Below are positions 31,372-52,209 of a stretch of DNA of 58,310 nt, one piece after another. The translations under genes were made by a program, and so were the position numbers. The notes beneath the pieces are model-generated. The model was given only the letters and a program-made list of their open reading frames with translations, was not told the DNA's origin and did not search any database. Each line of letters starts with the position of its first letter. Position 1 is the first letter of the stretch. This stretch comes from Bacteriovorax sp. BSW11_IV (GTDB taxonomy: Bacteria > Bdellovibrionota > Bacteriovoracia > Bacteriovoracales > Bacteriovoracaceae): NCBI RefSeq assembly GCF_000447755.1, contig NZ_AUNE01000033.1:1-58310 (forward strand). The letters are read 5' to 3'.

Positions 31372-31685
31372 CTCAATACTCCATTTAGATGTGTCATTTC
31401 ATTTTAGTTAAAGGCCAAAAAAGTACAAAGGGCAGCGCATGAATTTTGTCGTTTCTTACAAAAAGTTTGCAAATTAGCCCTAGTGTTTAAGTCGGGAGAA
31501 CGAAAAATTGAGGTGAATTTATTTATAGTACTGAAATTACGTAATTTGACGCTTCGAAAAACACATTCATTTTATAAACATAATATATTCTATCAACGAT
31601 AGGGGTTTAGTAATGCGAACTTAGGTTTCTTGTTATTTGAGACTTTTAGAACGCTTAGTTTAAGAATATGAAACACGGATAATTT
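31372..31685. promoter_or_regulatory. Upstream region of the giant lipoprotein gene, with a palindrome
   Basis: This 314-base region separates dedA from the surface-protein block. It contains a perfect 14-base palindrome AAATTACGTAATTT (31534-31547) whose right end overlaps a -35-like TTGACG (31546-31551); the best -10-like hexamers after it (TTATAA near 31572) are slightly too far. The palindrome could be an operator for the block. Confidence 0.35.
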
Positions 31686-34600
31686 TTGACGTTAAAAAAG
31701 AGAATTTCAGATTTAAGAAGAAGAGTATTAGGAGTCGTAAAATTCCTCATACTGCTTGCTCCAATTCTTGTGCTTCCATCTTGTAACGAAAACAAAATTC
31801 TCGTTGATATTACACCCTTTGAAGTGAGTCAAAGTGGAGGCAGTGAAGCTCCTGATCCAGCGCTACCAACTGCACCTCTTGTCGTTCTAAAGGATCGAAC
31901 AAGTTCGGATAGTGACATATCGAATGAATTAACTGTTGATATTGAAGTTACTGATTTGGGGTCTATTGATTCATGGTGTATTTCTGAAACACAAGTAACA
32001 CTTCCACCAGATACTTCAACTTGTTCTTCTGGCGCGTGGACAACAACACTACCTACAGACTTTACCTTTACACCAGGTGAAGGTCTTAGAGAAGTATATG
32101 TTTGGTATGCTGACGAGAATGGAAATATTGCTTCCACTGCTGTGGTCGCTACAATTAACCTTGATACAACTTCACCAACGAGTGCGGTAACTACACTTCC
32201 AAGCACGATCATTGATATTTCAAATCAAGAGAGTTTTACTCTCTCTGGTACCTGTTCAGAAGAGGGAGGAGATGTCGTTATTTCTAATTCTGTTAATGCG
32301 ACTACCACTTGTACTGGAGGAGTATGGAATGTCGATCTCGATGTTTCTTTATTACCAAATGGAACTATTACTTTTGATATTGATCTTAATGATGAAGCGG
32401 GAAATAGTGCAAGTACTCAGACAATTAATCTAACTAAAAATACAGTAACACCTGATCCTGCACTTGCTTTATCGGATACAGATTCTTCAAGTACAACTTA
32501 TTCAAATAGCTTAACAGTAAACGCTGCGATAACGTCGGACACATATGCTAAAAGATGGTGTTTGTCTGAATTGCAAACGACTAAACCTTCGGATGTATCA
32601 ACTTGTGCTTCTAGTGCGTGGGTTTCTACAAAACCGACTTCTTATACATTTACAGCTGGAGAAGGAACAAGAACTTTATATACATGGGTTGCAGATATAG
32701 GCGGAAATATTAGTGAGAATTCAATTAGTGATTCAATAACGATTGATACGACACCTTCTCTCATTGATTTTTCAACAGCTGCAAATTCATCAGTTCTAAG
32801 TTCTGCAACTCTTTCTGGAACTTGTTCAGAAGATGGTATCATTTCTGTCTCAGGAGATGTCGTTAATAAAACGACTTCATGTGCTTCAGGAGTTTGGTCT
32901 GATACTTTTGATTTCAGCGCCCAAGCTGTTGGAACCATCACTGTTTCAATAGATCAAACTGATGTTGCAGGTAATATTTCAACGACAGTTCAAAGAGACT
33001 TTAGTCGCGTAAGTCTCATTTATAATTTAAATGCAGATACAGTTAATTCTTTTGATGTCGCAATCTCTTATGGCATAGGAGATGTTACAAACTTAAAAAC
33101 TTTTACATATAAAATAGCAGAAGGGGCAACACCTCCTTCGGATTGTTCTGCAGGTATTGATTTTGGTAATACAAACGCAACACAAACAATCTCTTCTTTA
33201 AAGGCCTCAACTCAATATGGGCTAACAGTATGCTATGTTGATACTTCTGATGTTGAATTAGAAAGAGTTAGTTTGACTTTTACGACTTTGGCACCAATTT
33301 CAAGTGGTACTGGATTGGTATGTAGTGGTGGTGGTGATGTTAATACGACTTGTTATGTAAATGATGTCCAAAATTTTGCAAGTAATTCTGTAATCTATGT
33401 CCCTGGAAATCTCGTTATGCAAAGCGGGGGCTCTCTTACATCAAACAATTTAGAAAAAATTATTTTAAAAGTTGATGGTAATACAACCATTGAAAGCGGT
33501 GGAAAGATCGCTGCGAATTTATCATTCTTGGAAACAACGATATTAGATATTCAAGCAGGTGGTGAAATAAATGTTTCAGCACTTGGTTATCTCGGTGGAA
33601 TTTCTCCAGCTCTTGCTGGAAACGGGCCTTCTGGTGGTCAAGGGCATTCAAATAGTAGTGCTGATCCTGGAGGTGCTGGACATGCAGGACCAGGAGGAAA
33701 TGGTCGCTCTAGTGGGGGAACTACTGTTTATGGTGATAGGAAAGAACCTGTAGATTTCGGATCTGGTGGTGGCGCAGGTGATGATGAAGTTGGTGGACAC
33801 GGTGGTGGCGTTGTTAAAATTATTGTGAATGATCTTATTGTTAACGGAAATATTTTTGCCAAAGGTGGGCAAGGGGAAAACTCTTGTTGTGATCAAGGTG
33901 CTGGTGGTTCAGGTGGTTCAATATGGATTCAGGTCAATAATTCATTCACTGGTTCTGGTGCAATAAGTGTTGGCGGGGGAAGTGCTGGTGGTGTTGATGG
34001 TAACGAGATCACTGGCGCAGGTGCGGCAGGACGATTGGCCATTTATCAAAACAGTGGAGCTTATGTTTACTCTGGCTCCATAGATATTAATGGTGGGAGC
34101 TCCGGTACGAGAGGATCAAGTGGTACTTTTTATCTTGAGCTAGCAAATATAAATCAACTTTGCGATAGCGGTGATTTCTCTTCGACTTGTACAATTAGCA
34201 CAGCTAAAACAATTGGCGGTGATACAAGCATTACGAGTGGAAATTTAGTCATTGATGCTACAGGTGCAATTGATATTAAAGGGATTGATTCAACGTTTGT
34301 GTTTAACAATCCCACTGGAAATTTTTCTATTAACACTGGTGGTTCATTTTCTATGGACCCAAAAACATCTGTTTCAAATCTTGTGGCCAATACTTTAACT
34401 GTTGATGGGTCATGGCTTGCAAATCTCACAGAATCTTCAATTGCGACTGCAAATATTTCTGGAACTTTTAATGCCAATGGCAAAGGTTATCTTGGAGGAA
34501 CTGGATCTTTAGATGGTGAAGGTCCTTCTCCGGGAAAAGGAACGGCCAATGATGGTGGAGGTGGTGCCCATGCTACTGATGGATTTGCAGGTGATGCTGG

Positions 34601-37600
34601 GACAGCTGGTTCTCCATCTTATGGTACGGCCACGGCCCCTGTTACTTATGGATCAGCAGGGGGAGCAGGTGGAACTCAAATTGGAGGTAGTGGTGGTGGT
34701 GCTATTAAGCTCATTGTATCGGGAGCACTTTCAATCACAGGTACACTTTCTGCGAACGGATTAAATGGAACTGTAAATAGTGATATTTCTGGTGGTGGTG
34801 CTGGAGGTTCTTTATGGATTGAAGCGGCAAGTTTATCGGGAACAGGAGCGATTACGACAAATGGTGGAGCATCAGGAAGTTCGGCCTCAAATGGAAACGG
34901 CTCTGGTGGATATATTTATTTGAAAGTAACGGATGCTTACTATTATGGAACTATCAGTTCTAAGGCCGGACGTAGCGTCGCCGAAGGAAGTGTTGTTGTT
35001 GATGTTACAAATGCATACATTGCATGCTCTGGTGGAGGAAGTGTTCTCACCACTTGTTATATAAATGATACACAAAATCTTGTTCCTTATTTTGAATATA
35101 CCGTTGGTGGAAATCTCGTTGTTCAAAATGGTGGATTGCTAAAAGGTGGAGTTGGAGAGTTAAATAAACTCACTGTTTCAGGAAATATCACTGTGGAAAG
35201 TGGTGGTTCAATTAATGCAAATTTTAGTTCATTAACTGGTAATGCTATTGATATTCAATCAGGTGGTTCTATTAGTGCTGAAGGACTTGGTTTTCTCGGT
35301 GGAAAAAACAGAAGTGAAAGTGGACAAGGACCATCTCCTGGACTTGCAAGTTCTGCAAGCCCTGCTGGTGGTGGTGCCCATGGTGCCAACGGTGGAAATG
35401 GTAGTTTGGCCGGAGGAAATGCTCCCTATGGAAGCGAGTCTGCTCCAGTAACATTTGGTTCAGGTGGAGGAGCATGTTGGGATGCTGATGGAGGAAACGG
35501 CGGTGGAGCAATTAAATTAATTGCGAACTCTTTAACAGTGAACGGAACACTTTCCGCTAAAGGAATTGATATTACTTCAACTTCAGCTTATGTCGCAGGC
35601 GGTGGGGCCGGTGGTTCTTTATGGCTGCAAATTGCCAACGCTTTTGATGGAAGTGGTACGGTGACAGTGGCCGGAGGATATGGACGCTTCCAATCAGGTG
35701 GTCTTTCTGGTGGTGGCGGTGGTGGCCGGCTTGCAATTGAGTTTAATGGATCAAGCTTTGCCTTTAATGGGAGTCTGTCTGTTTTAGGTGGACGATACTC
35801 TGGGAGAATTGGCGGAGATGGAACATACTATTTATCATTGGGAGATAGTAATTCTCTTTGTGATAGTGGTGATCTCACTTCAACATGTGTGATTAATTCG
35901 AAAAAAAATCTTGGTCATAATCTAATTCTTAACGGCAATAATATAACGCTTACATCAACAGGTCTTTTAGATGTTAGTGGAACGAATACAGGATTTTCAT
36001 TGGATCTAACCGGTGATCTTCAGTTGCAATCAGGTTCATCTATTGTTCATACAGAATATTTAAGTGATCTAGAAATCAAAGTTGATGGAAATCTTACCGT
36101 AGAAAATACCGCTAGTATTTTATCTAATATCAGTTTGCTTGAAGTTGGTACGCTAACTGTTGATGCTGGTGGAAAAATATCAGCATCGGGAATGGGTTAT
36201 CTCGGTGGATTGGGTGGAAAGGCCGGGGAAGGACCTTCTCCAGGTCTTGCTTCGGGCGGAAATGAAGGAGGTGGCGGTGGCCATGCTTCTGTTGGTGGGG
36301 ATGGAAATGGTGCAACCACCGCAGGTGGAACTGTTATATATGGCGATATGTTAGCGCCAATAACTTATGGATCAGGTGGTGGAGCAGGTTATTCTTTAAA
36401 AGGCGGAAATGGTGGTGGTGCAATTAAGGTTATCGCCAATGATATAAATCTTAATGGGGAGCTTTCGGCAAATGGCTCAGATTGTGCTTATACCGCATCG
36501 TATGTTGCAGGTGCAGGGGCAGGTGGCTCCCTGTGGTTACAAGTCGCCAATTCATTCACAGGTTCTGGTTCAATTACAGCAAAAGGTGGAAATGGTCATG
36601 TTGTAAGTGTTGGTAGCGGTGGTGGAAGTGGTGGACGTGTGGCCGTCTTTTTTAATGGAACAAATTTAGGTTATGGCGGAGAAGTTAGTTCGTTAGGTGG
36701 TCGTGGTTCTTCTGATTGGGGAGGAGATGGTACATATTATTTAAGCTTAGCGAGCATCAATTCAATTTGTGATGCGGGAGATTTTTCGACAACTTGTACA
36801 ATTAATAAGACGAAAACTCTTGGTGGTAATTTAGCGCTTACTGGTAATCATCTCGAACTGACTCCAACGGGTGGCCTGACAATTATGGGAAGTAATTCAG
36901 GAAGTAGTCTAGACTTTACAGGAAGCCTCACAATGAGAGGTGGCTCATCAATTAATCGATACGAATATTTATCAACATATGAAATGCTCTTTGATGGAGC
37001 TGTCACTTTGGAGAATGCAAGTTCAATCAATTTAAATCTATCTCTTTTAGAAGCAAGTTCTCTTAATTTACAGGCAGGAAGTACAATCAATGCATCAGCG
37101 CTTGGATATGCTGGCGGAGTTGGTGGGCAAGATGGCAAAGGGACTTCGCCAGGAAATGGAGCGAGTACAAAAGATGCAGGTGGTGGAGCTCACGCTAGAG
37201 ATGGTGGAGATGGGCAAGATTCTTCTACGCTTGGAGGAACTCCGTCATATGGTAGTGAAACTAATCCAACTGATTATGGCTCAGGTGGAGGTGGTTCGAA
37301 TAAATACAATGGTGGGGCCGGCGGAGGAATCGTGAAGATCGTTGCTCCGTCTATAACTATTGATGGAGAGATTTTAGCTGAAGGTGGAAATGGGAGTGGG
37401 AACTCTTCATATGAAGGTGGAGGTGGTGCCGGAGGTTCTATCTGGCTAGTTTCAACAACTTCACTTTCTGGCTCTGGAAAATTAAGTGTCGCCGGTGGAA
37501 ATTCTTATGGAACAAGCTCTGGGGCAGGCTCTGCTGGTAGGATATCTATTGAGCTTGGAAGTTCTCCATACAACTTTTATGGAAGTGTGGGATTACTGGC

Positions 37601-39413
37601 CGGAACGGGAAAAATTGCAAATTCAAAAGGAACATTAAATATTTCATTTAACTCAGAAGATCAGTTTTGCGATATTGGAGACTCCTCAAGTTCATGTGAG
37701 CTAAACACTAAAAAAGTTCTTCCAGCACTTTCTTTTGCAGGGGATCTCATTTTAAATGAAGGTGCTACTTTATATGATGATACGAATACATTTTCTGTCG
37801 CCGGAGATTTCACCTTAAAAGCAAATAAGAATTTAGTTTCTATTTCAAATTTTAAATACAATTTCAATGTCACAGGAACAACAACCTTTGAAGCAAACTC
37901 ACTAGTAAAAATGAATTTGAATAATTTCCAATCAGGAAATATGAACTTACTAGGTTCAATTGATGTTTCTGAAATGGGTCATTCTGGGCTTTCAGGTTTA
38001 GGAGCTGGTAAAAATTCATCAGGGGGAAATAACTCTGGTGGGGGTGCTAGTTACGGAAGTCTTGGAGGAAGAGGATATGATTCCAATACAGCGGGAGATC
38101 TCTATGGAGATGAAACTGCTCCAGTAGAATTTGGTTCAACAGGAGGAAAAGAATCTTCTGTTCTTGGTGGGGCCGGTGGAGGCGCTGTAAAATTATCTGT
38201 TACAAATACTCTAAACTTCACGGGATCAATTTTATCTAATGGTGGCAATGGTGTAAATGTTAGTACCGATCACTCTAGTGGAGGTTCAGGAGGTTCCATT
38301 TGGTTAGTTGCGGGGTCAATTATTGGTAATGGTTCTCTTTCAGCTAAGGGGGGAAATCCTGCTGCTTCTTGGTCTGCGTGCGGTGGTGCGGGTAGGATTG
38401 CGATTAATGCCACAAATGCCGCTGGAAATTATCAATATGGCGGAGTTGTTGACATGAAATGTATAGATCGAGGTGTTGATGAAGGATCATTCTATTTAAC
38501 ACTTGCTGATCCAAATATGATTTGTGATTCAGGAGACTTCTCAAGTACATGTACTATTAGCTCTGATCGAACCTTAGGGGGCGTTCAAAACTTCACAGGA
38601 GTGGGAAGTTTCTCTCTTTCACCAAGCACAAATTTAAGAGTCTATGGAAATTCCTCGGCCATTAGTTTTGATTTATCTGGAAGCTTCTCATCTGGCGTTG
38701 GAAGTTTGATTTATTCAAGTAAGAAGATTTCTAAAATTCATACAGGAACAACGATTAATTTAGCAGGAGCAGTCGAAGCATCTCTACCTGATGTTTACGC
38801 TGTCGGTGATATCACGGTGGATGGAGTAATTAGTGCTTTTAATAAAGGTGGTCTTCCTGGCCACTATGCTATGGCCGGAATTGGTCTTGGTGGTGGTTTA
38901 CCATGTTCTGGGGGGAATAATCCAGGAGGTGGTGGTGGCCATGGTGGTGCTGGAGGAGATGGGTATTGCGCAAGTAGTGGTGGTGCTTCTTATGGAAATA
39001 TTTTACGGCCAGACACTGAAGGATCAGGCGGTGCCAGTGATACAGATACAGACACTAGCGGTGGAGCAGGTGGAGGTGTCATAAAAATGATTTCAGATGG
39101 TCATATTGCGATCAATGCAAATATAAATTCGAATGGTCAAGATGGTGAGGTTGTTGGTGGAAGTGCCGGTGGTGGAGGTGCAGGAGGTTCTGTTTATCTC
39201 GATGGACTTTCATGTGATGGCACTGGAAATTTATCTGCGATTGGAGGTTCAAGTACAGGAACTTTGTATGCGGCCGGTGGAGGTGGAGGTCGTATCCATC
39301 TAAGTTGTGCAACGAACTCTTGGAGTGGAGTCGCTGATGTCACTGGAGGAATTGCTGACAATGCTGGACGCTATGGTTCTAGTGGGACAATTGACTACAC
39401 AGTAATACCCTAG
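31686..39413 (+). CDS. Giant modular lipoprotein with seven Gly-rich repeats (2575 aa)
   Basis: A basic N-terminus and hydrophobic stretch end in VLPSC (lipid Cys33). The start is a TTG with a poor ribosome site and no better alternative. Residues about 60-430 hold two tandem pairs of domains: an 'aWcls...STC...aW' domain (WYADENGNIAS, WVADIGGNISE) followed by a bacterial Ig-like domain (SGTCSEEGG, SGTCSEDG). A fibronectin-III-like domain follows to about 545. From nt 33320 to the end run seven modules of about 280-300 residues. Each opens with C-x-x-G-x(4)-TC, continues as a beta-helix-like stretch, then has a loop region of G-rich motifs (GYLGG, GGGAH, GSGGGA, GGGAGGSLWLQ). The family is not recognised; an extended surface adhesin or matrix protein is likely. 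Confidence 0.8.
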   Translation: MTLKKRISDLRRRVLGVVKFLILLAPILVLPSCNENKILVDITPFEVSQSGGSEAPDPALPTAPLVVLKDRTSSDSDISNELTVDIEVTDLGSIDSWCISETQVTLPPDTSTCSSGAWTTTLPTDFTFTPGEGLREVYVWYADENGNIASTAVVATINLDTTSPTSAVTTLPSTIIDISNQESFTLSGTCSEEGGDVVISNSVNATTTCTGGVWNVDLDVSLLPNGTITFDIDLNDEAGNSASTQTINLTKNTVTPDPALALSDTDSSSTTYSNSLTVNAAITSDTYAKRWCLSELQTTKPSDVSTCASSAWVSTKPTSYTFTAGEGTRTLYTWVADIGGNISENSISDSITIDTTPSLIDFSTAANSSVLSSATLSGTCSEDGIISVSGDVVNKTTSCASGVWSDTFDFSAQAVGTITVSIDQTDVAGNISTTVQRDFSRVSLIYNLNADTVNSFDVAISYGIGDVTNLKTFTYKIAEGATPPSDCSAGIDFGNTNATQTISSLKASTQYGLTVCYVDTSDVELERVSLTFTTLAPISSGTGLVCSGGGDVNTTCYVNDVQNFASNSVIYVPGNLVMQSGGSLTSNNLEKIILKVDGNTTIESGGKIAANLSFLETTILDIQAGGEINVSALGYLGGISPALAGNGPSGGQGHSNSSADPGGAGHAGPGGNGRSSGGTTVYGDRKEPVDFGSGGGAGDDEVGGHGGGVVKIIVNDLIVNGNIFAKGGQGENSCCDQGAGGSGGSIWIQVNNSFTGSGAISVGGGSAGGVDGNEITGAGAAGRLAIYQNSGAYVYSGSIDINGGSSGTRGSSGTFYLELANINQLCDSGDFSSTCTISTAKTIGGDTSITSGNLVIDATGAIDIKGIDSTFVFNNPTGNFSINTGGSFSMDPKTSVSNLVANTLTVDGSWLANLTESSIATANISGTFNANGKGYLGGTGSLDGEGPSPGKGTANDGGGGAHATDGFAGDAGTAGSPSYGTATAPVTYGSAGGAGGTQIGGSGGGAIKLIVSGALSITGTLSANGLNGTVNSDISGGGAGGSLWIEAASLSGTGAITTNGGASGSSASNGNGSGGYIYLKVTDAYYYGTISSKAGRSVAEGSVVVDVTNAYIACSGGGSVLTTCYINDTQNLVPYFEYTVGGNLVVQNGGLLKGGVGELNKLTVSGNITVESGGSINANFSSLTGNAIDIQSGGSISAEGLGFLGGKNRSESGQGPSPGLASSASPAGGGAHGANGGNGSLAGGNAPYGSESAPVTFGSGGGACWDADGGNGGGAIKLIANSLTVNGTLSAKGIDITSTSAYVAGGGAGGSLWLQIANAFDGSGTVTVAGGYGRFQSGGLSGGGGGGRLAIEFNGSSFAFNGSLSVLGGRYSGRIGGDGTYYLSLGDSNSLCDSGDLTSTCVINSKKNLGHNLILNGNNITLTSTGLLDVSGTNTGFSLDLTGDLQLQSGSSIVHTEYLSDLEIKVDGNLTVENTASILSNISLLEVGTLTVDAGGKISASGMGYLGGLGGKAGEGPSPGLASGGNEGGGGGHASVGGDGNGATTAGGTVIYGDMLAPITYGSGGGAGYSLKGGNGGGAIKVIANDINLNGELSANGSDCAYTASYVAGAGAGGSLWLQVANSFTGSGSITAKGGNGHVVSVGSGGGSGGRVAVFFNGTNLGYGGEVSSLGGRGSSDWGGDGTYYLSLASINSICDAGDFSTTCTINKTKTLGGNLALTGNHLELTPTGGLTIMGSNSGSSLDFTGSLTMRGGSSINRYEYLSTYEMLFDGAVTLENASSINLNLSLLEASSLNLQAGSTINASALGYAGGVGGQDGKGTSPGNGASTKDAGGGAHARDGGDGQDSSTLGGTPSYGSETNPTDYGSGGGGSNKYNGGAGGGIVKIVAPSITIDGEILAEGGNGSGNSSYEGGGGAGGSIWLVSTTSLSGSGKLSVAGGNSYGTSSGAGSAGRISIELGSSPYNFYGSVGLLAGTGKIANSKGTLNISFNSEDQFCDIGDSSSSCELNTKKVLPALSFAGDLILNEGATLYDDTNTFSVAGDFTLKANKNLVSISNFKYNFNVTGTTTFEANSLVKMNLNNFQSGNMNLLGSIDVSEMGHSGLSGLGAGKNSSGGNNSGGGASYGSLGGRGYDSNTAGDLYGDETAPVEFGSTGGKESSVLGGAGGGAVKLSVTNTLNFTGSILSNGGNGVNVSTDHSSGGSGGSIWLVAGSIIGNGSLSAKGGNPAASWSACGGAGRIAINATNAAGNYQYGGVVDMKCIDRGVDEGSFYLTLADPNMICDSGDFSSTCTISSDRTLGGVQNFTGVGSFSLSPSTNLRVYGNSSAISFDLSGSFSSGVGSLIYSSKKISKIHTGTTINLAGAVEASLPDVYAVGDITVDGVISAFNKGGLPGHYAMAGIGLGGGLPCSGGNNPGGGGGHGGAGGDGYCASSGGASYGNILRPDTEGSGGASDTDTDTSGGAGGGVIKMISDGHIAINANINSNGQDGEVVGGSAGGGGAGGSVYLDGLSCDGTGNLSAIGGSSTGTLYAAGGGGGRIHLSCATNSWSGVADVTGGIADNAGRYGSSGTIDYTVIP
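33320..39413 (+). repeat. Seven coding repeats of about 840-900 bp in the giant lipoprotein gene
   Basis: The module-opening Cys codons lie at 33320, 34161, 35025, 35869, 36768, 37668 and 38523, giving lengths of 841, 864, 844, 899, 900, 855 and 890 bases. Protein similarity is clear but DNA identity is only moderate, so the duplications are old. Modules 1 and 3 open CSGGG-x-V-x-TTCYxND and the others CDxGD-x-x-S/T-x-C, hinting at an early two-type ancestor. Confidence 0.8.
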
Positions 39414-39418
39414 TCGAT

Positions 39419-39442
39419 GACTATATTTTTAGTCGGTTTTTT
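39419..39442 (+). terminator. Weak terminator after the giant lipoprotein gene
   Basis: GACTA (39419-39423) and TAGTC (39430-39434), then GG and a run of six Ts. The short stem makes efficiency uncertain. Confidence 0.4.
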
Positions 39443-39563
39443 CCATTAAATTGGGACTTCAAAATTGATATTGCTAACATAAGTGACCGATATTAAGGTC
39501 TGCTAATTTTTTTATCATAAGTATCCGAAAATGAATGACAGGAGAAGGTAAAATAAGGCAGAT

Positions 39564-42500
39564 ATGTTTATTGCAATACTAGAGACATTTTTAAAAATCT
39601 TTTTGATCATAATGATCTCAGTGTCCTGTATTGGAAATAAAAACATTCAAGTTAAAATTCATAACACTTCAGATGGTGCTAAAGGTTCTCAAAAGGCCGT
39701 TCTACTAAATGCAGATATTAGAAATAATCAACTAACACTTCTAGGTGAGGGCCTTAGCTCTGTAACCGAGATTCGTATCAAAAATAATTCAGGATTAGAT
39801 GAACAGCTTATAATTGATTCACAGAGTTCAACCTCACTTATTGCAAAGGCAATGGGCAATCTTGTTATTCCCCTAAATGGTGCTCTCTCATTACTTATTA
39901 AAGATTCTTATGGTGCCACCACATACCCATTAACTTTTGAATTACAAGATGGTGTCGTCACTGCTGCAAAACTGGATTCAATGGGCGCGATCTCTGGACA
40001 AGTTCTTATGTTTGATGGAACGAGTTGGGGACCACAAGATTTATCAGGTTTAGTTTACGCAGGAAACTGGGATGCGAATTCAGGTTCTGCTCCAACTTTA
40101 ACTCCCGGAGCAGGAGAGTATTACATTGTAAATAATGCCGGTACGACTTCTTTAAATGGAATAAATTCCTGGGCCATTGGTGATTGGGCCGTTTGGAATA
40201 GTGTCGATTCGCAGTGGGAAAAAATTGATAATGCCCCTTATGTTAGAAGTTTTAATGGAAGACCTGGAGATATTGTTCCAATGGCAGGTGATTATAATAT
40301 TAGTGATCTCGCTGGAGTTGATCTTACTGGTAATGCCAATGGTAAAGTTTTAAAGTTCAATGGGACTAATTGGGTACCTGCTGATGATTTAACTGGAGGT
40401 GCCGGTTCAGTTACTGAAACGCAATTACAAGATGGTGCTGTCACGACTAATAAAATTGCAGATGGAACAATTACAAATGCAGATATAGATAACGCTGCAG
40501 GAATTGCTCAATCAAAAATTAGTGGGCTTACAACTGATCTTTCTAACAAGCTTGGACTTAATGGTGGAACAATGGCCGGTCATATTGATATGAACGGTTC
40601 TAATATTGTAAATCCTGGAACTGTTGATGGCGTGGATATTTCTGCTCTATCTACATCTGTTGGAACAAATACGACAGCAATCTCAAATAATGTTTCTTCA
40701 ATAAATGCAAATACAACAAGTATATCAACGAACGCTACAAATATTTCTGGGAATACAACTGCTATTTCAGCCGTTAGTAATAGAAAGGCCGAAGAGTTCA
40801 CAACTGCTTGTACTGATAATCAATTTTTAATCGCTAGTAGTGGTGCTCTTGTGTGTGCAGATCCTAGTGGTGATTTAAGTTATGCTTCTTCAGGAAGCTC
40901 TCCTAATAATATGGTTTATGTTGATGACAATGGAAGAGTGGCAGTTGGTGATGGAGCAGCAACATCGACCATTACAAGAACCATTGTAAATAATAAAAAT
41001 CATCCAAACTTACTTATTACTACCAAAGGAAACGCTGATGTTTTAGCTTCTCCTGTTTTAGGTTTTGAAAATAATAAAAGTGATTATGCCGCTATAAGAT
41101 GGGCAGATTATGGTGATTTGATTTTTAGTATTGGCCATCCTTCGTTGGATAACTCTAATGCAACTTATGATATTTTTTCTTTAAATGGAACAGATCAAAG
41201 AATGAATATTCATAAGAAGGCCTACTTTGAAGATAAAATAGGTGTCGGTTTATCGAATCCAACTGAGAAAATTGAAGTTGTAGGTAATGTCAAGGCCACG
41301 GCATTTATTGGAGATGGTTCACAGTTAACTGGACTTAGTACGACGGGTGCAAGTAGTACGACGAGTGCTGTGATTACGGCCGATAGCGATTCAAATGGTT
41401 CAGGAGATATTTTATTTGTTACGGCAGGAACAGAAAAAGCAACTATTTTGAATAATGGAAATATGGGTGTAGGAGTGAGTGCTCCGACGGCGAAGCTAGA
41501 AGTTGATGGAACTATTAGATCAACTTCAACAACACCTTATTTTGAAATGAAAGATTCTGATACGGCCTATGGTTCAAATCCGCAATCAGCTCTCATATTT
41601 AAAGATTCTGCTGATACACAGTACTCTTATTTTGGTGCAACTGCAGGAGCCATGAGATGGGACAGTTTACTTCCAATATACTTAAACTCCAATGGTAGTG
41701 GTGGGGTTTATGTTAATACTAATGGTCGAGTCGGTATTGGAACAACTTCACCAAATGCACTTTTAGATATTGGTGGCACTGTTCGTGCTCAAGAACTATG
41801 TGATGAAACAGGTACTAAGTGTCATGATCTTTCTACTGGTGTAACACCAGTTCTAACTGGGATCTCAAGAGGAACAGCTGCGGCCCCATCAATAATGTTT
41901 GGTACAGATACAAATACAGGAATTTATTCACCAGGAACTGATCAAGTCGGTATTAGTGTCGCAGGAGTATTAGATGCTCGCTTTAATTCAAATGCCATTA
42001 GTTTTTATAAAAGATTAAACGTAACAAATTACAACAACACATCTATCGTCCCTGAGTTGGGAACAAGTTCTAGTGGAACGATCAATGCTGGAACACTTGT
42101 TGGTGAACATGTTTTTGATTATGGAGGAAGAATTACTCCTGATAGAGCATCAATTTACTTAGAGGCCAGTGAAACATTTTCAACTACTGCACAAGGGGCG
42201 TCTTTAAATTTTTCTACAATCTTAAATGGAACAACCACGGCCTCAAAAAAAATGACCATAGCAAATAACGGTTATATTGGTGTGGGTTCTCATTCTCCAA
42301 CAAGTTTATTCCATATTAGAGAACCTGATGATTCGTGGAATAGTTCATTTCGCATGGACCGTTCATGGGAGCCTACCACAGATTATTTTCAAATGATGTA
42401 CGACTATCAAGGTTTAAAAATTAGAACTATGGCCAATGACACTGATGAGGCCCATATTATTTTTAAGCCTCTTGATAGTGAGGCCATGAGAATTACAGAA

Positions 42501-43382
42501 GATGGGAAAGTAGGAATTGGTGTTACGAGCCCAAATACGGCCCTTAGTGTAGCTGGAACTGTTGAAGCGACTGCCGTATCAGCAGTAACGACCACAACAG
42601 GAACTCTTGGTGTCGTAAGTGGAGTTAGTGGAAATGTTGTGGCGACATTTCGAAACACATCTGATTCGGGGCTTTCAGGTTTTTCTTTTAGGGCCTATGA
42701 AAATTCAGACGTTGGATATATGGGCTTTGTTAATCCTGCTGTTCCTGGGCCATATCCTGCAGGTACAGTGACCTTACAGGGGATTGGTATACCTGTTACT
42801 TTAGGGATGAGTAATTCTGAAGTCATGAGAGTTCATACGAATGGTAATGTTGGAGTTAAGACGACAAATCCTACACATGACTTTCAAGTAGAAGGTACAG
42901 CTGGTCTTTCTTCGGGAACTGCCTGGACGAGTACATCAGATATTCGTTTAAAAGATATTCGTGGTGACTATGAATATGGATTAGACGAAGTTTTGAAACT
43001 TCATACCGTTCGATTTAATTATAAAAAAGATAATCCCCTTGGACTTAATAGTGAGCGAGAGATTATTGGATTTATTGCCCAAGAAGTAGAGCAAATTATC
43101 CCTGAAGCGATAAAGAGAAGAGATGATGGCTATCTTGAACTTAATGTGGATCCTATTCACTGGGCCGCAATCAATGCGATTAAAGATTTAAACGAAAAAG
43201 TTGAGTTGAATAAAGAGATGTTTACTTTTATGAGCAATGGCCTCTCTGAAAAAGTTGAAGATAATTCTCGCGAAATTGCCTCTTTAAAAGAAGAAAATCA
43301 AATCTTAAAAGACAGAATTGAACTTCTTGAGAAATCTCTCTGTGAATCGAATCCGTCCTTATCTATCTGTTCGAAAAACTAA
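39564..43382 (+). CDS. Lipid-anchored S74 fibre protein 1 (mosaic adhesive trimer-like, 1272 aa)
   Basis: The hydrophobic N-terminus ends in ISVSC (Cys22), a lipobox, so the N-terminus is probably membrane anchored. Residues about 45-165 are a base domain shared with the next fibre (LTLLGEGLSSVTEIRIK, then GATTYPLTFELQDG), partly IPT/TIG-like, followed by a 'G-x-W-D-A ... YYIV ... GDWAVWN ... SFNGRPGDIVP' segment known from phage tail fibres. A coiled stretch of N-T-x-I repeats (about 355-405) and beta-shaft repeats VGIGT-x-SP follow. S74 starts at Ser1125 (SDIRLKD, GFIAQEVE), with a C-terminal coiled coil. Family knowledge: S74 domains trimerise fibres and self-cleave at this Ser. A surface adhesin role is inferred. 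Confidence 0.85.
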   Translation: MFIAILETFLKIFLIIMISVSCIGNKNIQVKIHNTSDGAKGSQKAVLLNADIRNNQLTLLGEGLSSVTEIRIKNNSGLDEQLIIDSQSSTSLIAKAMGNLVIPLNGALSLLIKDSYGATTYPLTFELQDGVVTAAKLDSMGAISGQVLMFDGTSWGPQDLSGLVYAGNWDANSGSAPTLTPGAGEYYIVNNAGTTSLNGINSWAIGDWAVWNSVDSQWEKIDNAPYVRSFNGRPGDIVPMAGDYNISDLAGVDLTGNANGKVLKFNGTNWVPADDLTGGAGSVTETQLQDGAVTTNKIADGTITNADIDNAAGIAQSKISGLTTDLSNKLGLNGGTMAGHIDMNGSNIVNPGTVDGVDISALSTSVGTNTTAISNNVSSINANTTSISTNATNISGNTTAISAVSNRKAEEFTTACTDNQFLIASSGALVCADPSGDLSYASSGSSPNNMVYVDDNGRVAVGDGAATSTITRTIVNNKNHPNLLITTKGNADVLASPVLGFENNKSDYAAIRWADYGDLIFSIGHPSLDNSNATYDIFSLNGTDQRMNIHKKAYFEDKIGVGLSNPTEKIEVVGNVKATAFIGDGSQLTGLSTTGASSTTSAVITADSDSNGSGDILFVTAGTEKATILNNGNMGVGVSAPTAKLEVDGTIRSTSTTPYFEMKDSDTAYGSNPQSALIFKDSADTQYSYFGATAGAMRWDSLLPIYLNSNGSGGVYVNTNGRVGIGTTSPNALLDIGGTVRAQELCDETGTKCHDLSTGVTPVLTGISRGTAAAPSIMFGTDTNTGIYSPGTDQVGISVAGVLDARFNSNAISFYKRLNVTNYNNTSIVPELGTSSSGTINAGTLVGEHVFDYGGRITPDRASIYLEASETFSTTAQGASLNFSTILNGTTTASKKMTIANNGYIGVGSHSPTSLFHIREPDDSWNSSFRMDRSWEPTTDYFQMMYDYQGLKIRTMANDTDEAHIIFKPLDSEAMRITEDGKVGIGVTSPNTALSVAGTVEATAVSAVTTTTGTLGVVSGVSGNVVATFRNTSDSGLSGFSFRAYENSDVGYMGFVNPAVPGPYPAGTVTLQGIGIPVTLGMSNSEVMRVHTNGNVGVKTTNPTHDFQVEGTAGLSSGTAWTSTSDIRLKDIRGDYEYGLDEVLKLHTVRFNYKKDNPLGLNSEREIIGFIAQEVEQIIPEAIKRRDDGYLELNVDPIHWAAINAIKDLNEKVELNKEMFTFMSNGLSEKVEDNSREIASLKEENQILKDRIELLEKSLCESNPSLSICSKN

Positions 43383-43410
43383 TTTTAAAAAGTACTGAAT
43401 CGAAACAGTC

Positions 43411-43429
43411 CACTAATGACATATTAGTG
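43411..43429. repeat. Perfect 7-bp hairpin in the gap between the two fibre genes
   Basis: CACTAAT (43411-43417) and ATTAGTG (43423-43429) surround GACAT. No T-run follows, so it is more like an operator or a processed 3' end than a classical terminator. The rest of the 270-base gap shows no ORF and no clear promoter. Confidence 0.45.
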
Positions 43430-43652
43430 CCTCAAAAAATTGCGTAACAAAATTGCCACAAGGCTTGAATGATCTAAGTCGCCTTATAGTATTGAGCTTT
43501 AATTTTCAAAAGGTTGTATTACTCGGAATGGGGGATGTGAAAAACTGTATGAAATATTAAACGTTTTTCATTGTTGAGCGATAAGATTCTAGTAAAGGTG
43601 TGTGAAGAATTATGTGTTTTAAGGGTGATACATAGTTCTATCGTGAGGAATC

Positions 43653-46600
43653 ATGCGACTTAAAAATTTAATAAATAAAATTCTATCATTAATAATCGCC
43701 GTTTTTATTTTCATTTCATGCGTGGCCGATAACGGTAAGATTAATGTTAGTTTTAACGGATCTGTTTTCGGCGGACAAACAATTGGTGAAAAATCATCTC
43801 TTGTCAGCGCAGATATTCATAATGATGTCTTAACTATTCAAGGGCAGTATTTAAATGGAGTAAAAGAAATTAGAGTTAAAAGTAGTGGAGGTTTTGATGA
43901 AGTGTTTGTAATAGAAAATCAAACCAGTTCATCTATCACCGCTAAATCGACCCATCCTCTTCTCATCCCTCTTAATGCTGCACTTTCAATTATCATAAAA
44001 GACTCATTCGGGGCGACAACTTATCCACTTACATTCGAACTTCAAGATGGTGCTGTTACACAAGCAAAACTTCACGACATGGGTGCAAACGATGGTGATG
44101 TTTTAACTTTCAATCAGTCCATTGGAAAATGGGAGCCTCGCAATTTAAGCGGTCTAAATTTTAAAGGATCATGGGACGCAAGAACAGTTGCTGAAGGTGG
44201 GGCCGAAGTTGAACCCGATATTTCACCACAGCCGGGAGATTACTGGCTTGTTGCAAATCCAGGAAATACAGATTTAGATGGAACAATTAATTGGAGAAGT
44301 GGAGACTGGGCCATCTTTAATGGAACGAGTTGGCAAAAAATAAGTAATTCAAGTGATGTCATTAGTTTTAACGGTAGACAGGGGGCCGTTGTCCCTGCTT
44401 CAGGGGATTATACTTGGGCCGATATTAATAAGACGACTTCTTCAATTAACGATATTGCAGATGTTGATACTTCTACTGTAGCTAGTGGTCAAGTTTTAAA
44501 GTGGAATGGAACTCAATGGCTACCAGCAAATGATGATACAACTGCAGTTGCTGGAAGTGTTGGTTCATCAGAAATTGCAGCAGGTGCAATTGATAATTCT
44601 CACGTAAGTGCAACTGCTAATATTGATCAATCCAAAATTTCAAATCTAACAACTGATCTTGCAGCGAAATTAAGTCTTGCTGGTGGAATCATGACAGGTG
44701 CCATTGATATGGGTGGAAATAATATTGGCAATGTTGGGACAGTCGATGGAGTCGATATTTCAGCTCTTAATACTGCTGTTGGAACAAATACGACAAGTCT
44801 ATCAAATAAAGTAGATAAAACCACAACAATAAACGGACAGGCGTTATCTGGAAACGTCACATTAACAACAACAGATGTGTCTGAAGGAACGAATCAATAC
44901 TTTACAGATGCACGCGCAAAAGCAGCAAGTGTTGTGAATTCTACTTCAGGAAGTGAAACCGATCAGGCTGCTTCTGTCGATGCAATGAAAAGTTATGTAA
45001 CTGCACAAGTTGGGGCGATTAGTTCATCACAGTGGACCACTAATGGATCTGATATTTATTACAACGCAGGTGGCGTCGGAATTGGTGTCTTAGCTCCAAC
45101 TGAAAAATTAGATATTGCTGGTAACATTAAAGTTAACGGCCTTCTTCTTGGTACTGGTTTAGGTAATGATACAACCAATACAGCATTTGGAAAAAACGCT
45201 TTAGTCGCAAACTCGACTGGATGGCAGAACGTTGCAATTGGAGAGTTGGCCATGGAGGCGGCCGTAGGTTCGACTCAAAATACAGCAATAGGTTCCTATG
45301 CAATGAGATATGATACAGGTTCAACTAATAACGTCGCCGTTGGAACCTATGCTCTAGAGGGAAATCAGGGGGGAAGTTACAATACAGCGGTTGGAGTTTT
45401 CGCTCTTGAATATAATACTTCTGGTAATGATAACGTTGCAGTAGGTGAACAAGCACTTTTAGTGAACTCTACTGGAAGTAATAACGTAGCTGTTGGAAGG
45501 CAAAGTTCTGTTTATAACAGAACAGGATCTGGCAACGTTACCATAGGCCACTCTGCTGGGTATGGGACAAGTTCTGTTTCTGATTATTCTAATAATACAA
45601 TCGTTGGCCATAGAGCTGGTCGTCTTGTTAGAACGGCCGCAAGTAACAACGTATTAATAGGTTATCAAGCTGCAGATTCGTTAACTACGGGTGCAAATAA
45701 TATTGTCATTGGCCATGACATTGATCTGCCTTCAGCAGCAAGTGCAAATATGCTCAATATCGGAAATCTAATCTATGGTAGCGGTGTCGATGGAAGTGGG
45801 ACAACTGTCTCCACTGGAAATGTTGGTATAGGCGTTGTAAATCCAAGTTCAAAATTAGAAGTTGCGGGTGATTTAAAGGTATCTTCACTCTCAGGCAGTG
45901 GGACGAGATGTCTGCAAACAGACACTAACGGTGTGATAAGTTTATCATCAGGAGCATGTGTTACAGGGGGAGTTGGTGAAGTTAATACTGCATCTAACGT
46001 TGGGACTGCGGGTGTGGGCGTATTTAAGCAAAAGATAAGTTCTAATCTAGAATTTCGAAATATTTCTAGTAATGGTGCAATAAATGTCGTTGATGATAGT
46101 GCTAATAATGAGATTGATATTGCAGTTAAAGTAGATAATTCAACAATTGAAGTGAGTTCGGATTCATTACAAATAAAGAATGGGGGAGTTGATCTTACGA
46201 CAAAAGTTACTGGAGCGCTTCCTATATTGAATGGTGGAACAGGAGCAAGCACAGCATCAGGTGCACGAACTAATTTAGGATTAGGTAGTAGTTCTATTGC
46301 AAATGCTCCTGCTCTTGCTTGTGTGGCAAGTGAAAAAGTCACTTATGATGGAACAAATTATGTTTGCGCGACAGATTTAAATTCTGATGCGACAAAACTT
46401 CCTCTCACTGGTGGGACAATGAGTGGTGCGATTGCAATGGGTGGTAATCTAATCACTGGTCTGTCAAATCCCTCTTCTAATCAAGATGCTGCAACAAAAT
46501 CTTATGTTGATTCGGCCATATCAAGTTCAAATTTATGGACATTAACAGGCGCAGATGTCTCTAGATTGACTGGTAATGTTGGAATTGGGATCGCAACACC

Positions 46601-47867
46601 GCTTTCAGATTTTCAAGTTCATAGGGCCAATGGATGGACAACATCTCGAGTTTCAAGTGGAGACTCTGGAGTACAATTACTGTTGAATTCAGTAGGTACT
46701 ACAGGCTATGACGGTGTCATAAATTATGGTTCAACAAAAGCTTTTTCTATTACTACAGATTATCAATCTAGTGCAGCAGCAGACTTTACTATTTTAGCAA
46801 ATGGTAATGTCGGTATTGGAACTTCTTCTCCAGCCGTTGAACTCGATGTAAACACTGGGACAATTAATGCTGCATTTTTATGTGATGAAAACAATTCGAA
46901 TTGTCGCGACCTCTCAGTACCTGTTGCGGGCGATAATCTTGGAAATCATCAGGCCACTCAAAATTTGAACTTACAAGGACATAAATTAGTCGGAAGTGGA
47001 GGCTCTTCTGGTCTATCGATTAACTCCAGTGGGGCAATTTCTTTTGATGGCTTTATGCAGAACCACTCTTTTAACGCAGGTACAATTACTGGTCTAACTG
47101 GTTTATCTATGAATATGTCGAAAAGGCATATGATAAATGTAAATGCCAATAATTCATCTTCTTATAGTTCATCAAGTGTCTCCGTAGCGACGCCAGATGG
47201 AAACGTGGGGATATATAGTGGAAATAGTGCAACAGTGGATGGCGCAGGAGCATTCTATCAACTTGGGGCGAATAATGCCGCTGGTAATGAGCAGAGAGCA
47301 TATATTGGAGTATCGAGTAATGTTACAGGATATTCTCCTAATCTTGTATTTGGTCATCAGACAGGTCTTAACAGCTATAGCGAGGTTATGAGAATCGATT
47401 CTTCTGGCAATGTCGGTATTGGGACTTCTTCTCCAACTTCAGAATTAGATGTTGTTGGAGATATTCAGTATACGGGAGTACTTACTGACGTTTCCGATAT
47501 TCGTTTGAAAAAAGATTTTGAAAAATTAGAAGGAGCGCTTGAAAAGATAAATAGAGTGGAGACGTACTCTTATGTTATGAGAAATGATCAACATTCAAGA
47601 AGAGAATTTGGTGTTATAGCTCAAGAAATAGATGAGATATTTCCTGAATTAGTGAAGATTTTCGATAAGAAAGATGGTCTTTTAAGCGTGAATTATATTG
47701 GACTTATTCCATGGACAATTTCAGCGATACAAGAAGTTGACGTTAAAATTGAATCCAATACTAGAAGTATTGCAAGTGTCGAAGATCGAATTGCTAAATT
47801 AGAAAGAGAAAATAAAGAACTAAAAGAAAAGTTAAATTTGTTGATTGAGAAGTTGAATGCCAAATAG
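43653..47867 (+). CDS. Lipid-anchored S74 fibre protein 2 with YadA-head-like repeats (1404 aa)
   Basis: The lipobox is FISC (Cys23). The base domain (about 50-165) is closely similar to that of fibre 1, including GATTYPLTFELQDGAVT. After a tail-fibre segment (SFNGRQGAVVPASGDYTW, then TDARAKAA), residues about 515-690 are left-handed-helix repeats of the YadA/collagen-binding head type (NTAIGSYA, NNVAVGTYAL, NDNVAVGEQAL, NNVLIGYQA), which fibre 1 lacks. More VGIGT-x-SP shaft follows. S74 begins at Ser1281 (SDIRLKKD, GVIAQEIDEIFPEL), with a coiled-coil end. AGGA precedes the ATG. The LVIVD gene starts 11 bases before this gene ends. Same architecture as the mosaic adhesive trimers of Bdellovibrio. 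Confidence 0.87.
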   Translation: MRLKNLINKILSLIIAVFIFISCVADNGKINVSFNGSVFGGQTIGEKSSLVSADIHNDVLTIQGQYLNGVKEIRVKSSGGFDEVFVIENQTSSSITAKSTHPLLIPLNAALSIIIKDSFGATTYPLTFELQDGAVTQAKLHDMGANDGDVLTFNQSIGKWEPRNLSGLNFKGSWDARTVAEGGAEVEPDISPQPGDYWLVANPGNTDLDGTINWRSGDWAIFNGTSWQKISNSSDVISFNGRQGAVVPASGDYTWADINKTTSSINDIADVDTSTVASGQVLKWNGTQWLPANDDTTAVAGSVGSSEIAAGAIDNSHVSATANIDQSKISNLTTDLAAKLSLAGGIMTGAIDMGGNNIGNVGTVDGVDISALNTAVGTNTTSLSNKVDKTTTINGQALSGNVTLTTTDVSEGTNQYFTDARAKAASVVNSTSGSETDQAASVDAMKSYVTAQVGAISSSQWTTNGSDIYYNAGGVGIGVLAPTEKLDIAGNIKVNGLLLGTGLGNDTTNTAFGKNALVANSTGWQNVAIGELAMEAAVGSTQNTAIGSYAMRYDTGSTNNVAVGTYALEGNQGGSYNTAVGVFALEYNTSGNDNVAVGEQALLVNSTGSNNVAVGRQSSVYNRTGSGNVTIGHSAGYGTSSVSDYSNNTIVGHRAGRLVRTAASNNVLIGYQAADSLTTGANNIVIGHDIDLPSAASANMLNIGNLIYGSGVDGSGTTVSTGNVGIGVVNPSSKLEVAGDLKVSSLSGSGTRCLQTDTNGVISLSSGACVTGGVGEVNTASNVGTAGVGVFKQKISSNLEFRNISSNGAINVVDDSANNEIDIAVKVDNSTIEVSSDSLQIKNGGVDLTTKVTGALPILNGGTGASTASGARTNLGLGSSSIANAPALACVASEKVTYDGTNYVCATDLNSDATKLPLTGGTMSGAIAMGGNLITGLSNPSSNQDAATKSYVDSAISSSNLWTLTGADVSRLTGNVGIGIATPLSDFQVHRANGWTTSRVSSGDSGVQLLLNSVGTTGYDGVINYGSTKAFSITTDYQSSAAADFTILANGNVGIGTSSPAVELDVNTGTINAAFLCDENNSNCRDLSVPVAGDNLGNHQATQNLNLQGHKLVGSGGSSGLSINSSGAISFDGFMQNHSFNAGTITGLTGLSMNMSKRHMINVNANNSSSYSSSSVSVATPDGNVGIYSGNSATVDGAGAFYQLGANNAAGNEQRAYIGVSSNVTGYSPNLVFGHQTGLNSYSEVMRIDSSGNVGIGTSSPTSELDVVGDIQYTGVLTDVSDIRLKKDFEKLEGALEKINRVETYSYVMRNDQHSRREFGVIAQEIDEIFPELVKIFDKKDGLLSVNYIGLIPWTISAIQEVDVKIESNTRSIASVEDRIAKLERENKELKEKLNLLIEKLNAK

Positions 47868-50800
47868 AATTATAAAGAAAATACTCTTTTGCCTTTTCTT
47901 CATGCTTACTAGCTTCTTCTCGGATGCTGCCTGTGTTTCACCTAATGCTTCGGCCGGTTCAATAGATTATAATTCAACAACTAAAAATTCAACTTATTGT
48001 AATGGCAGTGAGTGGAAGAATTTAAAATACGGGGGAGTTGATTTCTTATCCGATATTGGTGATGCAAAGAACTTTAAGGCTTCGTCCATAAATTCTCTAG
48101 ATATGTCTGGAAATTATGCATATGTTACACATGGTACTTCGATGTATGTAATAGATGTCACAGATGTTTCAAACCCCACTTATATTGCAAGTTTTAATCA
48201 TCCAAATAATACTCAGATAGTGGGCGTGAAGATAGATGGAACAACAGCATACCTTATTTCGAGTAACTGGGTGTTGGCCTTAGATGTAACTATTCCTTCT
48301 AATCCTACTCTTATTGGAAGCATATACAATAGCGCAATGACATCTCCTAGATTAATTGAATTTCATAATGGCTATGTGTATGGCCTAAAAGATGGTGCTA
48401 TTTTTGTATTTGATTTTCTTATTCCAAGTGCTCCTGTTTTTGTTGCATCTTTAGTGGATGCTGTAAATATTAGGCAACCTTTTTCAACTTATGTAAGCGG
48501 TAACTTTTTATATATCAGTGACCAAAATTATGATCAGTTAACTATTTTAGATATCACAAATCCAAGTACTATTTCTGTTGAGAGTATGATCAGCGATTCT
48601 GTCAAATTAAATGGAATTAGTGATTTGTATGTTCAAGGGAATTATCTTTATGGTGTTGCAAAGTTGGCGAGTTCATTAGTCATTGTTGATGTCACTGATA
48701 AAGCAAATCCTTCTATCCTTAAGGAGTTTAAATCATCTGGAATTAATAATGGTGTAAGGCTTGTGGCCTATAATCAATTTCTTTTTGTTGGGTGTGATAC
48801 TGGTTCCAGCTCTGGAAGCTACTTAACAACTATTGATATTTCGAATCCACTTGAACCCGAAGAAATTTTTAAAATATATATCGAGGGAGGCCGTTTTCCT
48901 GGTGCAGATTACATGAAGGCCTCATCAGGACGACTTGCTCTTTATTCCAATGATTCTAATTTTATCTCTACATATGATATTAGCTCAAAACCTTTAGGTA
49001 AGCAGAGTATCGAAAATTCATTATTTGCAAAAAACAATAGTTCAACATCTATGATTGCCAGTGCCGGCAATTATGCCGTTGCTGCTGGCGGCGCTGAAGA
49101 AATCTTCATCTATGATGTTTCAACACCTTCAACCCCTGTTCCAAGGGGAGCTTGGAGAACACCGCATGGAGTGAATTTATACGGCAGTGCTCTAGAGTTC
49201 GATGGACAATATGCGTATTATGGGGCCACAAATCGCGCTACAGTTTATATCGTTGATGTCGGAACAAATCCCGATAGACCAAAAATGGTTGCACAAATAA
49301 CCGATAATTTGATTGGGTCAGTACACAATATCATTTATCAGAATAACTATATTTATGTTGCAAATAAATTTGGGTCTCGATTAACAATTGTCGATGTTAC
49401 GAATAGGGCAAACCCAATAATCGTTGGAAGTTTACAAGATTCTACCAATCTCTCTGGTATAGTTGGGCTATTTAAAGAAGGCAATTATGTCTATGTTGCC
49501 TCTGGAACTGCAAAAACTTTTTCTATTATCGATGTTTCAGATAAGGCGAATCCAACTCTTGTATCTTCTATAACTGATGCGACGCTCTTCAGTGCACTTG
49601 TAGATGTCACAAAAGTTGGAAACTATGTTTATCTGTTAGCTCAAGGTAATGATTCTTTATTCATTATTGATGTAACAAATCCCTTATCACCAGTTTACGT
49701 TTCTCAATTTCAAAATTCTACTTACTATGACTATGGATATTCCTTAATTGCGAAAGGAAGCACTCTGGTCATCAGTTCTTTTTTAAGTGGTATTAGTTTT
49801 GTTGATATTTCAAATCCATTGAATCCAACACCATATTTTAGAGAAACAGGTTCGAACACGCTTTTCGCAATTAATGGAAATTACGTTTATAACCCAGGTA
49901 ACTGGGGAATTAAGACCTATGATATTACAACACCTGCAACACCGACTTCTCTAGGAATAGTTAATTATGTCGGCCAGCTCCAAGGAGCGTCTTCATTTCA
50001 AAAAGTTGGAAATTATGGACTAATTACAAGCACGACCAATAAGAGTATCGCAATTGTAAATTTAACAGATGTAAACGATTTATTTTTTGAATCATCATTC
50101 ATTGATACCACTAATCTAAATGGTTCAATTGATATGGTTGTTGATGGTAGTTATGCGTATGTGTTGGGATCAAATCAATTTTCAATATACGACATTTCGA
50201 CCCTGCCCTCTATTTCATTTGTTTCTAAAGTTACAGATATTTCGACAATTTCTTCAGCATCTCGTTTAATCGTAGAGGGTAATTATTTGTATCTTTCATC
50301 GAGCAGTGCGAGCCGAATTACAATTTATGATATTTCTAACAAAGCATCTCCTACTTTGGTCAGTTCTTTAAACGATTCTAATTTGTCAGGTGCTTTTGAT
50401 ATGAAAAAGATCGGCAATTACATTTATACAACATCAAAGACTGCAAAGACGTTTTGCTCAGTTGATGTTAGTAATGTGAGTTCTCCTGCAATTGGTAATT
50501 GCTATTCAGATGCAACATATTTTGATGGAATACAAGAATTTGAGATTATCGGAAATATTGCCTTCGTTACAACATACACAACTTCAACGAATCCTACACT
50601 TACAAGGTTGGATATTTCTAATCCATTAAATATAACTCTTATTGAAAGTATTAAAACTGGAAGCTCTATGTTTTCCCTAATTAAAAAGGGAAATACAATA
50701 TTCTTTTCTCATGATAACGGTACAAAATATGGTCAATTTTTTGTTGATGCTTCAGGTGAAGTAAGAGCGCAATCAAAAGATATTGCCTATTATGGTAACT

Positions 50801-52080: not shown

Positions 52081-52182
52081 TGAAATTTATATAAGGTAGG
52101 TGTGGGAAGTAAATCTGGTCTCTAATCACATGAAATTATAATTTAAGGCAAACAGTTCTGCGTCGGTAACGTTTCAAAGTTA

Positions 52183-52209
52183 AAGGCCTCTTACGAGGCC
52201 TTCATTTTT
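52183..52209 (+). terminator. Intrinsic terminator closing the surface-protein block
   Basis: AAGGCCTC (52183-52190), loop TTAC, GAGGCCTT (52195-52202), then CATTTTTT. It lies directly against the stop codon of the convergent peroxiredoxin gene. It is oriented for the plus strand; the minus strand has no good T-run. Confidence 0.8.

Follow-up and report, generated by a model that had tools for sequence, protein, structure and literature searches.

A Probable Lipoprotein of Bacteriovorax with Seven Glycine-Rich Modules of Predicted β-Helix Fold and a Possible Role in Surface Contact

Introduction

Several described systems resemble the protein discussed here in location, fold, or composition. 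Bdellovibrio bacteriovorus HD100 has 13 S74 and 8 non-S74 mosaic adhesive trimer (MAT) fibres; those that were tagged are found on the surface of the predator, and one S74 fibre binds prey glycans (PMC10769870). In prasinoviruses (Ostreococcus), FhaB-like right-handed β-solenoids are encoded in a hypervariable region for host interaction (PMC12906663). With regard to composition, Gly-rich triplets are the signature of the polyglycine II (PGII) sandwich (PMC9436101), and gp38 of phage PP01 joins such a sandwich to a β-helix (PMC12892980).

The subject of this work is a 2575-residue protein encoded in the window, by which we mean the whole 58,310-nucleotide stretch of Bacteriovorax sp. BSW11_IV that was analyzed (NZ_AUNE01000033.1). 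It likely shares its location and its cluster with the Bdellovibrio MAT fibres, with two S74 fibre lipoproteins encoded directly downstream, but Pfam and PHROGs searches find neither an S74 domain nor tail-fibre repeats in it, and it is modelled as a single-chain β-helix. That predicted fold, parallel and right-handed, is shared with the TPS exoproteins HxuA, HMW1, and EtpA and with tapirin and SRRP. In contrast to the TPS exoproteins, the window protein is composed of discrete Gly-rich modules of ~290 residues with a probable lipid anchor and Ig-type spacers. No TPS secretion domain (Haemagg_act) was found when the full sequence was compared with Pfam down to matches of E 10; Pfam likewise gave no match to an autotransporter C-terminal β-barrel, and module 7 reaches the C-terminus.

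Gene and Protein Architecture

The open reading frame begins with a TTG start codon, and all module matches in the source genome fall within this one gene. Its features are as follows.

31686..39413, + strand: whole gene, 2575-aa probable lipoprotein with seven Gly-rich modules of predicted β-helix fold (ORF, translation)
31686..31784, + strand: signal peptide and atypical putative lipobox (VLPSC, Cys33), from the sequence and from relatives with AFSSC and LLGC
31875..33305, + strand: putative Ig-like/Fn3-like spacer, aa 64-540 (weak Big_13; Big_7 in a relative; Fn3 by eye)
33321..34160, + strand: module 1, 280 aa, Cys pair at aa 546 (module alignment)
34161..35024, + strand: module 2, 288 aa, Cys pair at aa 826 (module alignment)
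35025..35858, + strand: module 3, 278 aa, Cys pair at aa 1114 (module alignment)
35859..36767, + strand: module 4, 303 aa, Cys pair at aa 1392 (modelled as a right-handed β-helix)
36768..37667, + strand: module 5, 300 aa, Cys pair at aa 1695 (modelled in tandem with module 4)
37668..38522, + strand: module 6, 285 aa, Cys pair at aa 1995 (module alignment)
38523..39410, + strand: module 7, 296 aa, Cys pair at aa 2280, C-terminal, ending in IDYTVIP (module alignment)

The leader consists of a basic stretch, then a hydrophobic stretch, and then Cys33. The sequence VLPSC33 agrees with the lipobox [LVI][ASTVI][GAS]C except for a non-canonical Pro at -2, and the corresponding sequences are AFSSC and LLGC in two similarly arranged relatives. 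An N-terminal lipid anchor is read as probable from sequence. Ig-like repeats alternate at aa 64-540, where the Fn3-like part was assigned by eye. The sole Pfam match of the protein at E up to 10 is a sub-threshold Big_13 (E 0.0038), and Big_7 scores above its cut-off in the N-terminal region of a relative (G300 / L083). An earlier note on this DNA, made from the sequence alone, had placed Ig-like domains behind a lipid anchor and ahead of the modules; we infer the same arrangement, backed by the lipoboxes and the Big_7 domain of the relatives.

The seven Gly-rich modules of 280-300 residues that had been described were confirmed, with lengths of 278-303 aa. Their alignment has 318 columns, 37 of them invariant and 29 of these Gly, and pairwise identity among the seven is 29-50%. 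A Cys pair does open every module as proposed, but the motif given for it (C-x-x-G-x4-T-C) is strict only in modules 2, 4, 5, and 7; modules 1 and 3 have one additional residue and module 6 ends in SC. The turn motif GG(G)[AS]GGS[ILV][WY] is found in six modules, and module 4 has the variant GAGAGGSLWLQ. Profiles of the module match 42-43 ORFs from the fetched loci, and the same ORFs give zero matches when reversed or shuffled in 20-aa blocks, so the modules are not an artefact of chance or composition. Four GGxGxD matches are scattered over the 2575 residues, and the RTX-type GGxGxDxxx nonapeptide array is absent. Across 37 modules from many phyla, 16 columns remain invariant (14 Gly, Pro167, and Ser224), Arg260 and Tyr161 are nearly so, and Ser172, Trp226, and His/Tyr142 complete the conserved non-Gly positions.

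Predicted Fold

AlphaFold2, supplied with 37 aligned sequences, predicts module 4 as a right-handed parallel β-helix (pLDDT 91.7, pTM 0.90). This model of one module supports the β-helix-like strands and Gly-rich turns that had been read from the sequence. Two tandem modules (4 and 5) were predicted almost equally well, and these scores (pLDDT 91.6, pTM 0.88) argue for a defined module junction, with the start of the second module, including its Cys pair, at pLDDT 95. The β-helix apparently runs on across the junction in this model.

Structural comparison of the single module by VIA-align returned β-helix adhesins at Z 12-16 and rmsd 2.2-3.3 Å, with a sequence identity of just 9-20%. HxuA ranks highest (Z 16.2, 2.6 Å over 175 residues) and is followed by HMW1 (Z 15.4), EtpA (15.1), tapirin (14.9), and SRRP (12.5). 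Several matches of the tandem model extend beyond the junction; it aligns with 4rm6 from model residues 3..345 (2.3 Å over 174 residues) and with the HK620 tailspike from 1..370 (3.1 Å); both ranges span the junction, and such ranges give the first and last aligned residue only. Because Foldseek alone finds no significant match for the single module in the PDB, we treat these results as a match of fold class and not as proof of homology. The assignment of the module to the right-handed parallel β-helices is well supported as a prediction rather than a solved structure. From the strand list we estimate ~11 coils per module. The usual rise per β-helix coil is 4.8 Å, which would give ~5 nm per module and 35-40 nm for all seven, an estimate made without coordinates.

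The earlier note had also likened the Gly density to polyglycine II bundles, and this likeness is not supported, the model being a parallel β-helix. Residues 109-187 of the module form a 79-residue coil with ~40% Gly that is confidently predicted almost without regular secondary structure; it could reflect either PGII-like packing or no more than tight turns. In the Gly-rich segment, the frequency of Gly pairs at lag 3 (0.149) is close to that of shuffled sequences (0.145, z 1.1), whereas a slight enrichment is seen at lag 2 (z 4.0). The Foldseek match to the gp38 adhesin chain 9v85_C is insignificant (E 2.6, TM 0.16-0.20). With the triplet periodicity missing and the gp38 match insignificant, the PGII reading is not supported. 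A high Gly content is common to the module, PE_PGRS proteins, and gp38, and gp38 likewise has a β-helix domain. The window protein differs from PE_PGRS proteins in having no GGX triplet periodicity and no PE domain (no Pfam match). Similar Gly-rich proteins are present in plants, which we mention as a lead only.

Giant-virus proteins gave another likeness. Foldseek against BFVD matched predictions from an Ostreococcus virus, a Bathycoccus virus, Orpheovirus, and Pandoravirus (E 1.4e-8 to 1.6e-6, TM 0.4-0.5). The entries A0A6H1QWC9, A0A7S6NY19, S4VX73, and A0A2I2L380 share the predicted module fold, and some of them are labelled collagen-like. The prasinovirus FhaB-like solenoids belong to the same fold class but are viral, and the BFVD matches may or may not be the proteins of the published study.

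Family Status and Distribution

Searches of Pfam, NCBIfam, PHROGs, and PDB sequences returned only the sub-threshold Big_13 and AgmC_N (NCBIfam NF047640). AgmC_N matches the window protein at E 2.2e-6 with 27.3 bits against a cut-off of 275, over positions 248-394 of a 412-position profile, and it matches 18 of the 37 module sequences (best E 1.1e-9). About half of the module is covered, namely the Gly-rich half, and the profile is nowhere matched over its full length. What AgmC does is presumed here from its name, and a literature search yielded no useful paper about AgmC or about Bdellovibrio surface lipoproteins rich in Gly. Two other candidates were rejected. Tau, matched by profile in the PDB at E 0.13, is attributed to chance, and the G8 domain has no match in the window modules; one Lentisphaerae module start passes and two aligned modules are weak. 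The layout is thus one for which no named family was found, as had been supposed, since no Pfam family covers the module. The stronger statement that the protein is apparently undescribed stands in part: neither Pfam nor PHROGs has a family for it, but AgmC_N holds a related stretch and FhaB-like solenoids have been described (PMC12906663).

The profile search places tandem copies of the module in many bacterial lineages, Planctomycetes and Gammaproteobacteria among them, and in a nanoarchaeal MAG. Within the source phylum the module is present in 31 of 291 genomes, and 14 of 129 genomes of the source family have a match. A scan of named genomes found it in Chloroflexi, Anaerolineae, Nanoarchaeota, Verrucomicrobia, Phycisphaerae, Lentisphaerae, Bacteroidales, Marinobacter, and Microbulbifer (MAGs or strains by title), and its copies there are mostly in tandem arrays. 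Samples of the respective phyla gave 24/149 genomes (16%) for that of the Phycisphaerae genome (planctomycete sample), 8/115 (7%) for Verrucomicrobia, 4/249 for that of the Microbulbifer genome, and 3/148 for that of the Bacteroidales genome. The nanoarchaeal MAG has four module matches on two contigs; single MAG cases could be explained by contaminating contigs. Phage origin was considered and rejected, as the phage, plasmid, and IMG/VR collections hold no relative of the module.

We put forward tentatively, with confidence that falls slightly short of even, that the module is a distinct uncatalogued β-solenoid family, common to numerous phyla of bacteria, to some archaea, and to giant viruses, and that it has served repeatedly as a stackable unit for surface rods with which cells and viruses contact other cells. 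The module is widespread and uncatalogued, yet right-handed β-helix rods themselves are known. It has no Pfam entry despite its presence in about one-tenth of the sampled source-phylum genomes and in the planctomycete and verrucomicrobial samples, and its carrier proteins (700 to >8000 aa) are for that reason easily left "hypothetical". A module profile gives these proteins one fold and one likely form. Modules also lie within giant open frames of 14967 aa (G831:C1:3963220-3967584, verrucomicrobial phylum) and 8751 aa (G058, L049/L050).

The relatives have a common layout of an export signal (often a lipobox), Ig-type domains, and tandem modules. Judged by eye at their N-termini, ~16 relatives from the source phylum have a lipobox and ~11 a plain signal peptide, counts that are approximate, with false positives among the automatic lipobox calls. 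The lipobox forms tend to carry Ig-type spacers (Invasin_D3/Big_1, He_PIG, fn3) ahead of the modules, and the plain-signal forms consist of modules only. A C-terminal T9SS sorting tail is present in two relatives that belong to other phyla. Lipoboxes, signal peptides, and T9SS tails together argue for a location outside the cell.

Comparison with a 2550-aa relative from another genus (genome G045) bears on the age of the array. Window modules 1, 2, 3, 5, 6, and 7 are closest to the same positions of that protein (49-68%), and two of its positions are equally close to module 4. This module-by-module match indicates that the seven-module array is older than both genera, and recent tandem amplification was rejected on the same grounds. 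A protein from a second genome of that genus (G300) has eight modules in 3872 aa. Between orthologous modules, strand residues are 49% and non-Gly coil residues 43% identical, so the coils are not clearly more variable and there is no signature of diversifying recognition loops; hypervariable loops were discarded as a candidate on this basis.

Genomic Island and Fibre Neighbours

The gene is the first of four same-strand genes for surface proteins, which agrees with its description as first in a fibre block.

31372..52208, strand not assigned: 20.8-kb island, VTT-protein gene to AhpC-type peroxiredoxin gene (absent at this site in five relatives)
39564..43382, + strand: neighbour, 1272-aa S74 fibre protein with lipobox SVSC (domain search)
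43653..47867, + strand: neighbour, 1404-aa S74 fibre protein with lipobox FISC (domain search)
47857..52080, + strand: neighbour, 1407-aa LVIVD β-propeller protein with signal peptide (domain search)

Both S74 fibre proteins have canonical lipoboxes. The propeller protein contains 15 LVIVD stretches, and its gene overlaps the preceding fibre gene by 11 bp. Measured by match ends, the VTT and AhpC genes are 20.8 kb apart in the window but only 68-78 bp apart in G008, G050, and G300; the distance is ~0.9 kb in G045 and reaches 1.3 kb in G059 of the same genus. Since the two flanking genes are nearly adjacent in these five relatives, the four genes constitute an accessory island. G045 encodes an unrelated Ig-rich lipoprotein of 3265 aa nearby, between its PilZ and VTT genes (L105:2551-12348), and its module protein is encoded elsewhere. 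The VTT locus is possibly a hot spot for giant proteins of the cell surface. With the gene in an accessory island and the insertion site variable among relatives, the surface repertoire can be tested one gene at a time.

The source genome has ten S74 domains, and a third S74 protein of the window (640 aa, 6-1928) lies at its opposite end. A fibre gene is found beside the module gene in 5 of 38 module-protein loci and in none of the other 33. S74 adjoins the module gene in the window only, so S74 linkage was rejected as a general rule; the four other loci have fibre-like genes in which no S74 was detected. The module proteins of the closest relatives, G045 and G300, are without fibre neighbours.

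Function and Alternative Readings

We consider it somewhat probable that the protein is a surface-anchored β-solenoid rod that serves in contact or adhesion. The rod form is likely, and the contact or adhesion role is plausible. Several lines of evidence favor this reading: the structural neighbours are secreted β-helices, largely adhesins; two S74 fibre lipoproteins and a propeller are encoded beside it in the accessory island; relatives repeat the combination of export signal, Ig-type domains, and tandem modules; the seven-module array has been kept module by module in another genus; and the conserved non-Gly residues include no catalytic set. The Pro at -2, the lack of a variable coil signature, and the fibre neighbour in so few loci are points against it.

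In the proposed arrangement, the N-terminal Cys would be lipidated and the protein exported to the outer membrane, where the Ig/Fn3-like domains would raise the rod off the membrane. The seven modules would follow one another as a single, continuous right-handed parallel β-helix, with a Cys pair, presumably a disulphide, at each junction and with Gly-rich turns that permit tight packing. The rod, if exposed on the surface, would most likely serve contact with or adhesion to other surfaces such as prey or substrate, and it would be one item of a swappable set of surface proteins that includes the trimeric S74 fibres. A likely predator would thereby gain a second class of surface rod beside those fibres.

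The strongest rival, which we regard as rather unlikely, is a passive surface coat or matrix scaffold in which rods space, shield, or stiffen the surface without a specific partner. The low-charge composition rich in Gly, Ser, and Asn would suit a coat, as would conservation confined to structural Gly and hydrophobic core positions and the lack of a variable-loop signature. However, a single gene that is absent from most relatives (14/129 family genomes have a match) argues against a general coat, and this gene is grouped with fibre genes in an accessory island. The earlier suggestion of a long stalk or surface coat is thus retained as to the stalk, which is the likely form, with the coat left as a rival reading.

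An adhesin for gliding or surface motility like myxobacterial AgmC, which would couple the cell to the substrate in movement, is improbable. Of the curated models, AgmC_N alone gives repeated matches to the module, but its score is about one-tenth of the cut-off over a partial profile and may simply reflect the module's Gly-rich half, itself found across many phyla. Still more doubtful is a tip partner of a trimeric fibre that caps the fibre and recognizes a receptor, as in phage gp37-gp38. Four loci (L042, L043, L046, and L087) resemble the phage gene order, in that a fibre-like gene is followed immediately, in the same orientation, by the gene of a plain-signal module protein, and gp38 offers its combination of β-helix and PGII sandwich as a precedent. 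The window protein, in contrast, has its own probable lipid anchor, and its gene precedes those of the fibres. Most module proteins are encoded without a fibre gene beside them, the structural match to gp38 is insignificant, and hypervariable loops are not seen. Pectate and alginate lyases appear among the structural matches with the same fold, but the conserved non-Gly positions over 37 modules look structural and provide no conserved acid or Lys set, which makes a polysaccharide lyase or other β-helix enzyme very improbable indeed.

A propeller is found beside module proteins in a second case, L045, where a 1326-aa RCC1-type propeller lipoprotein (L045:8214-12194) is encoded between two module lipoproteins of ~2430 aa each.
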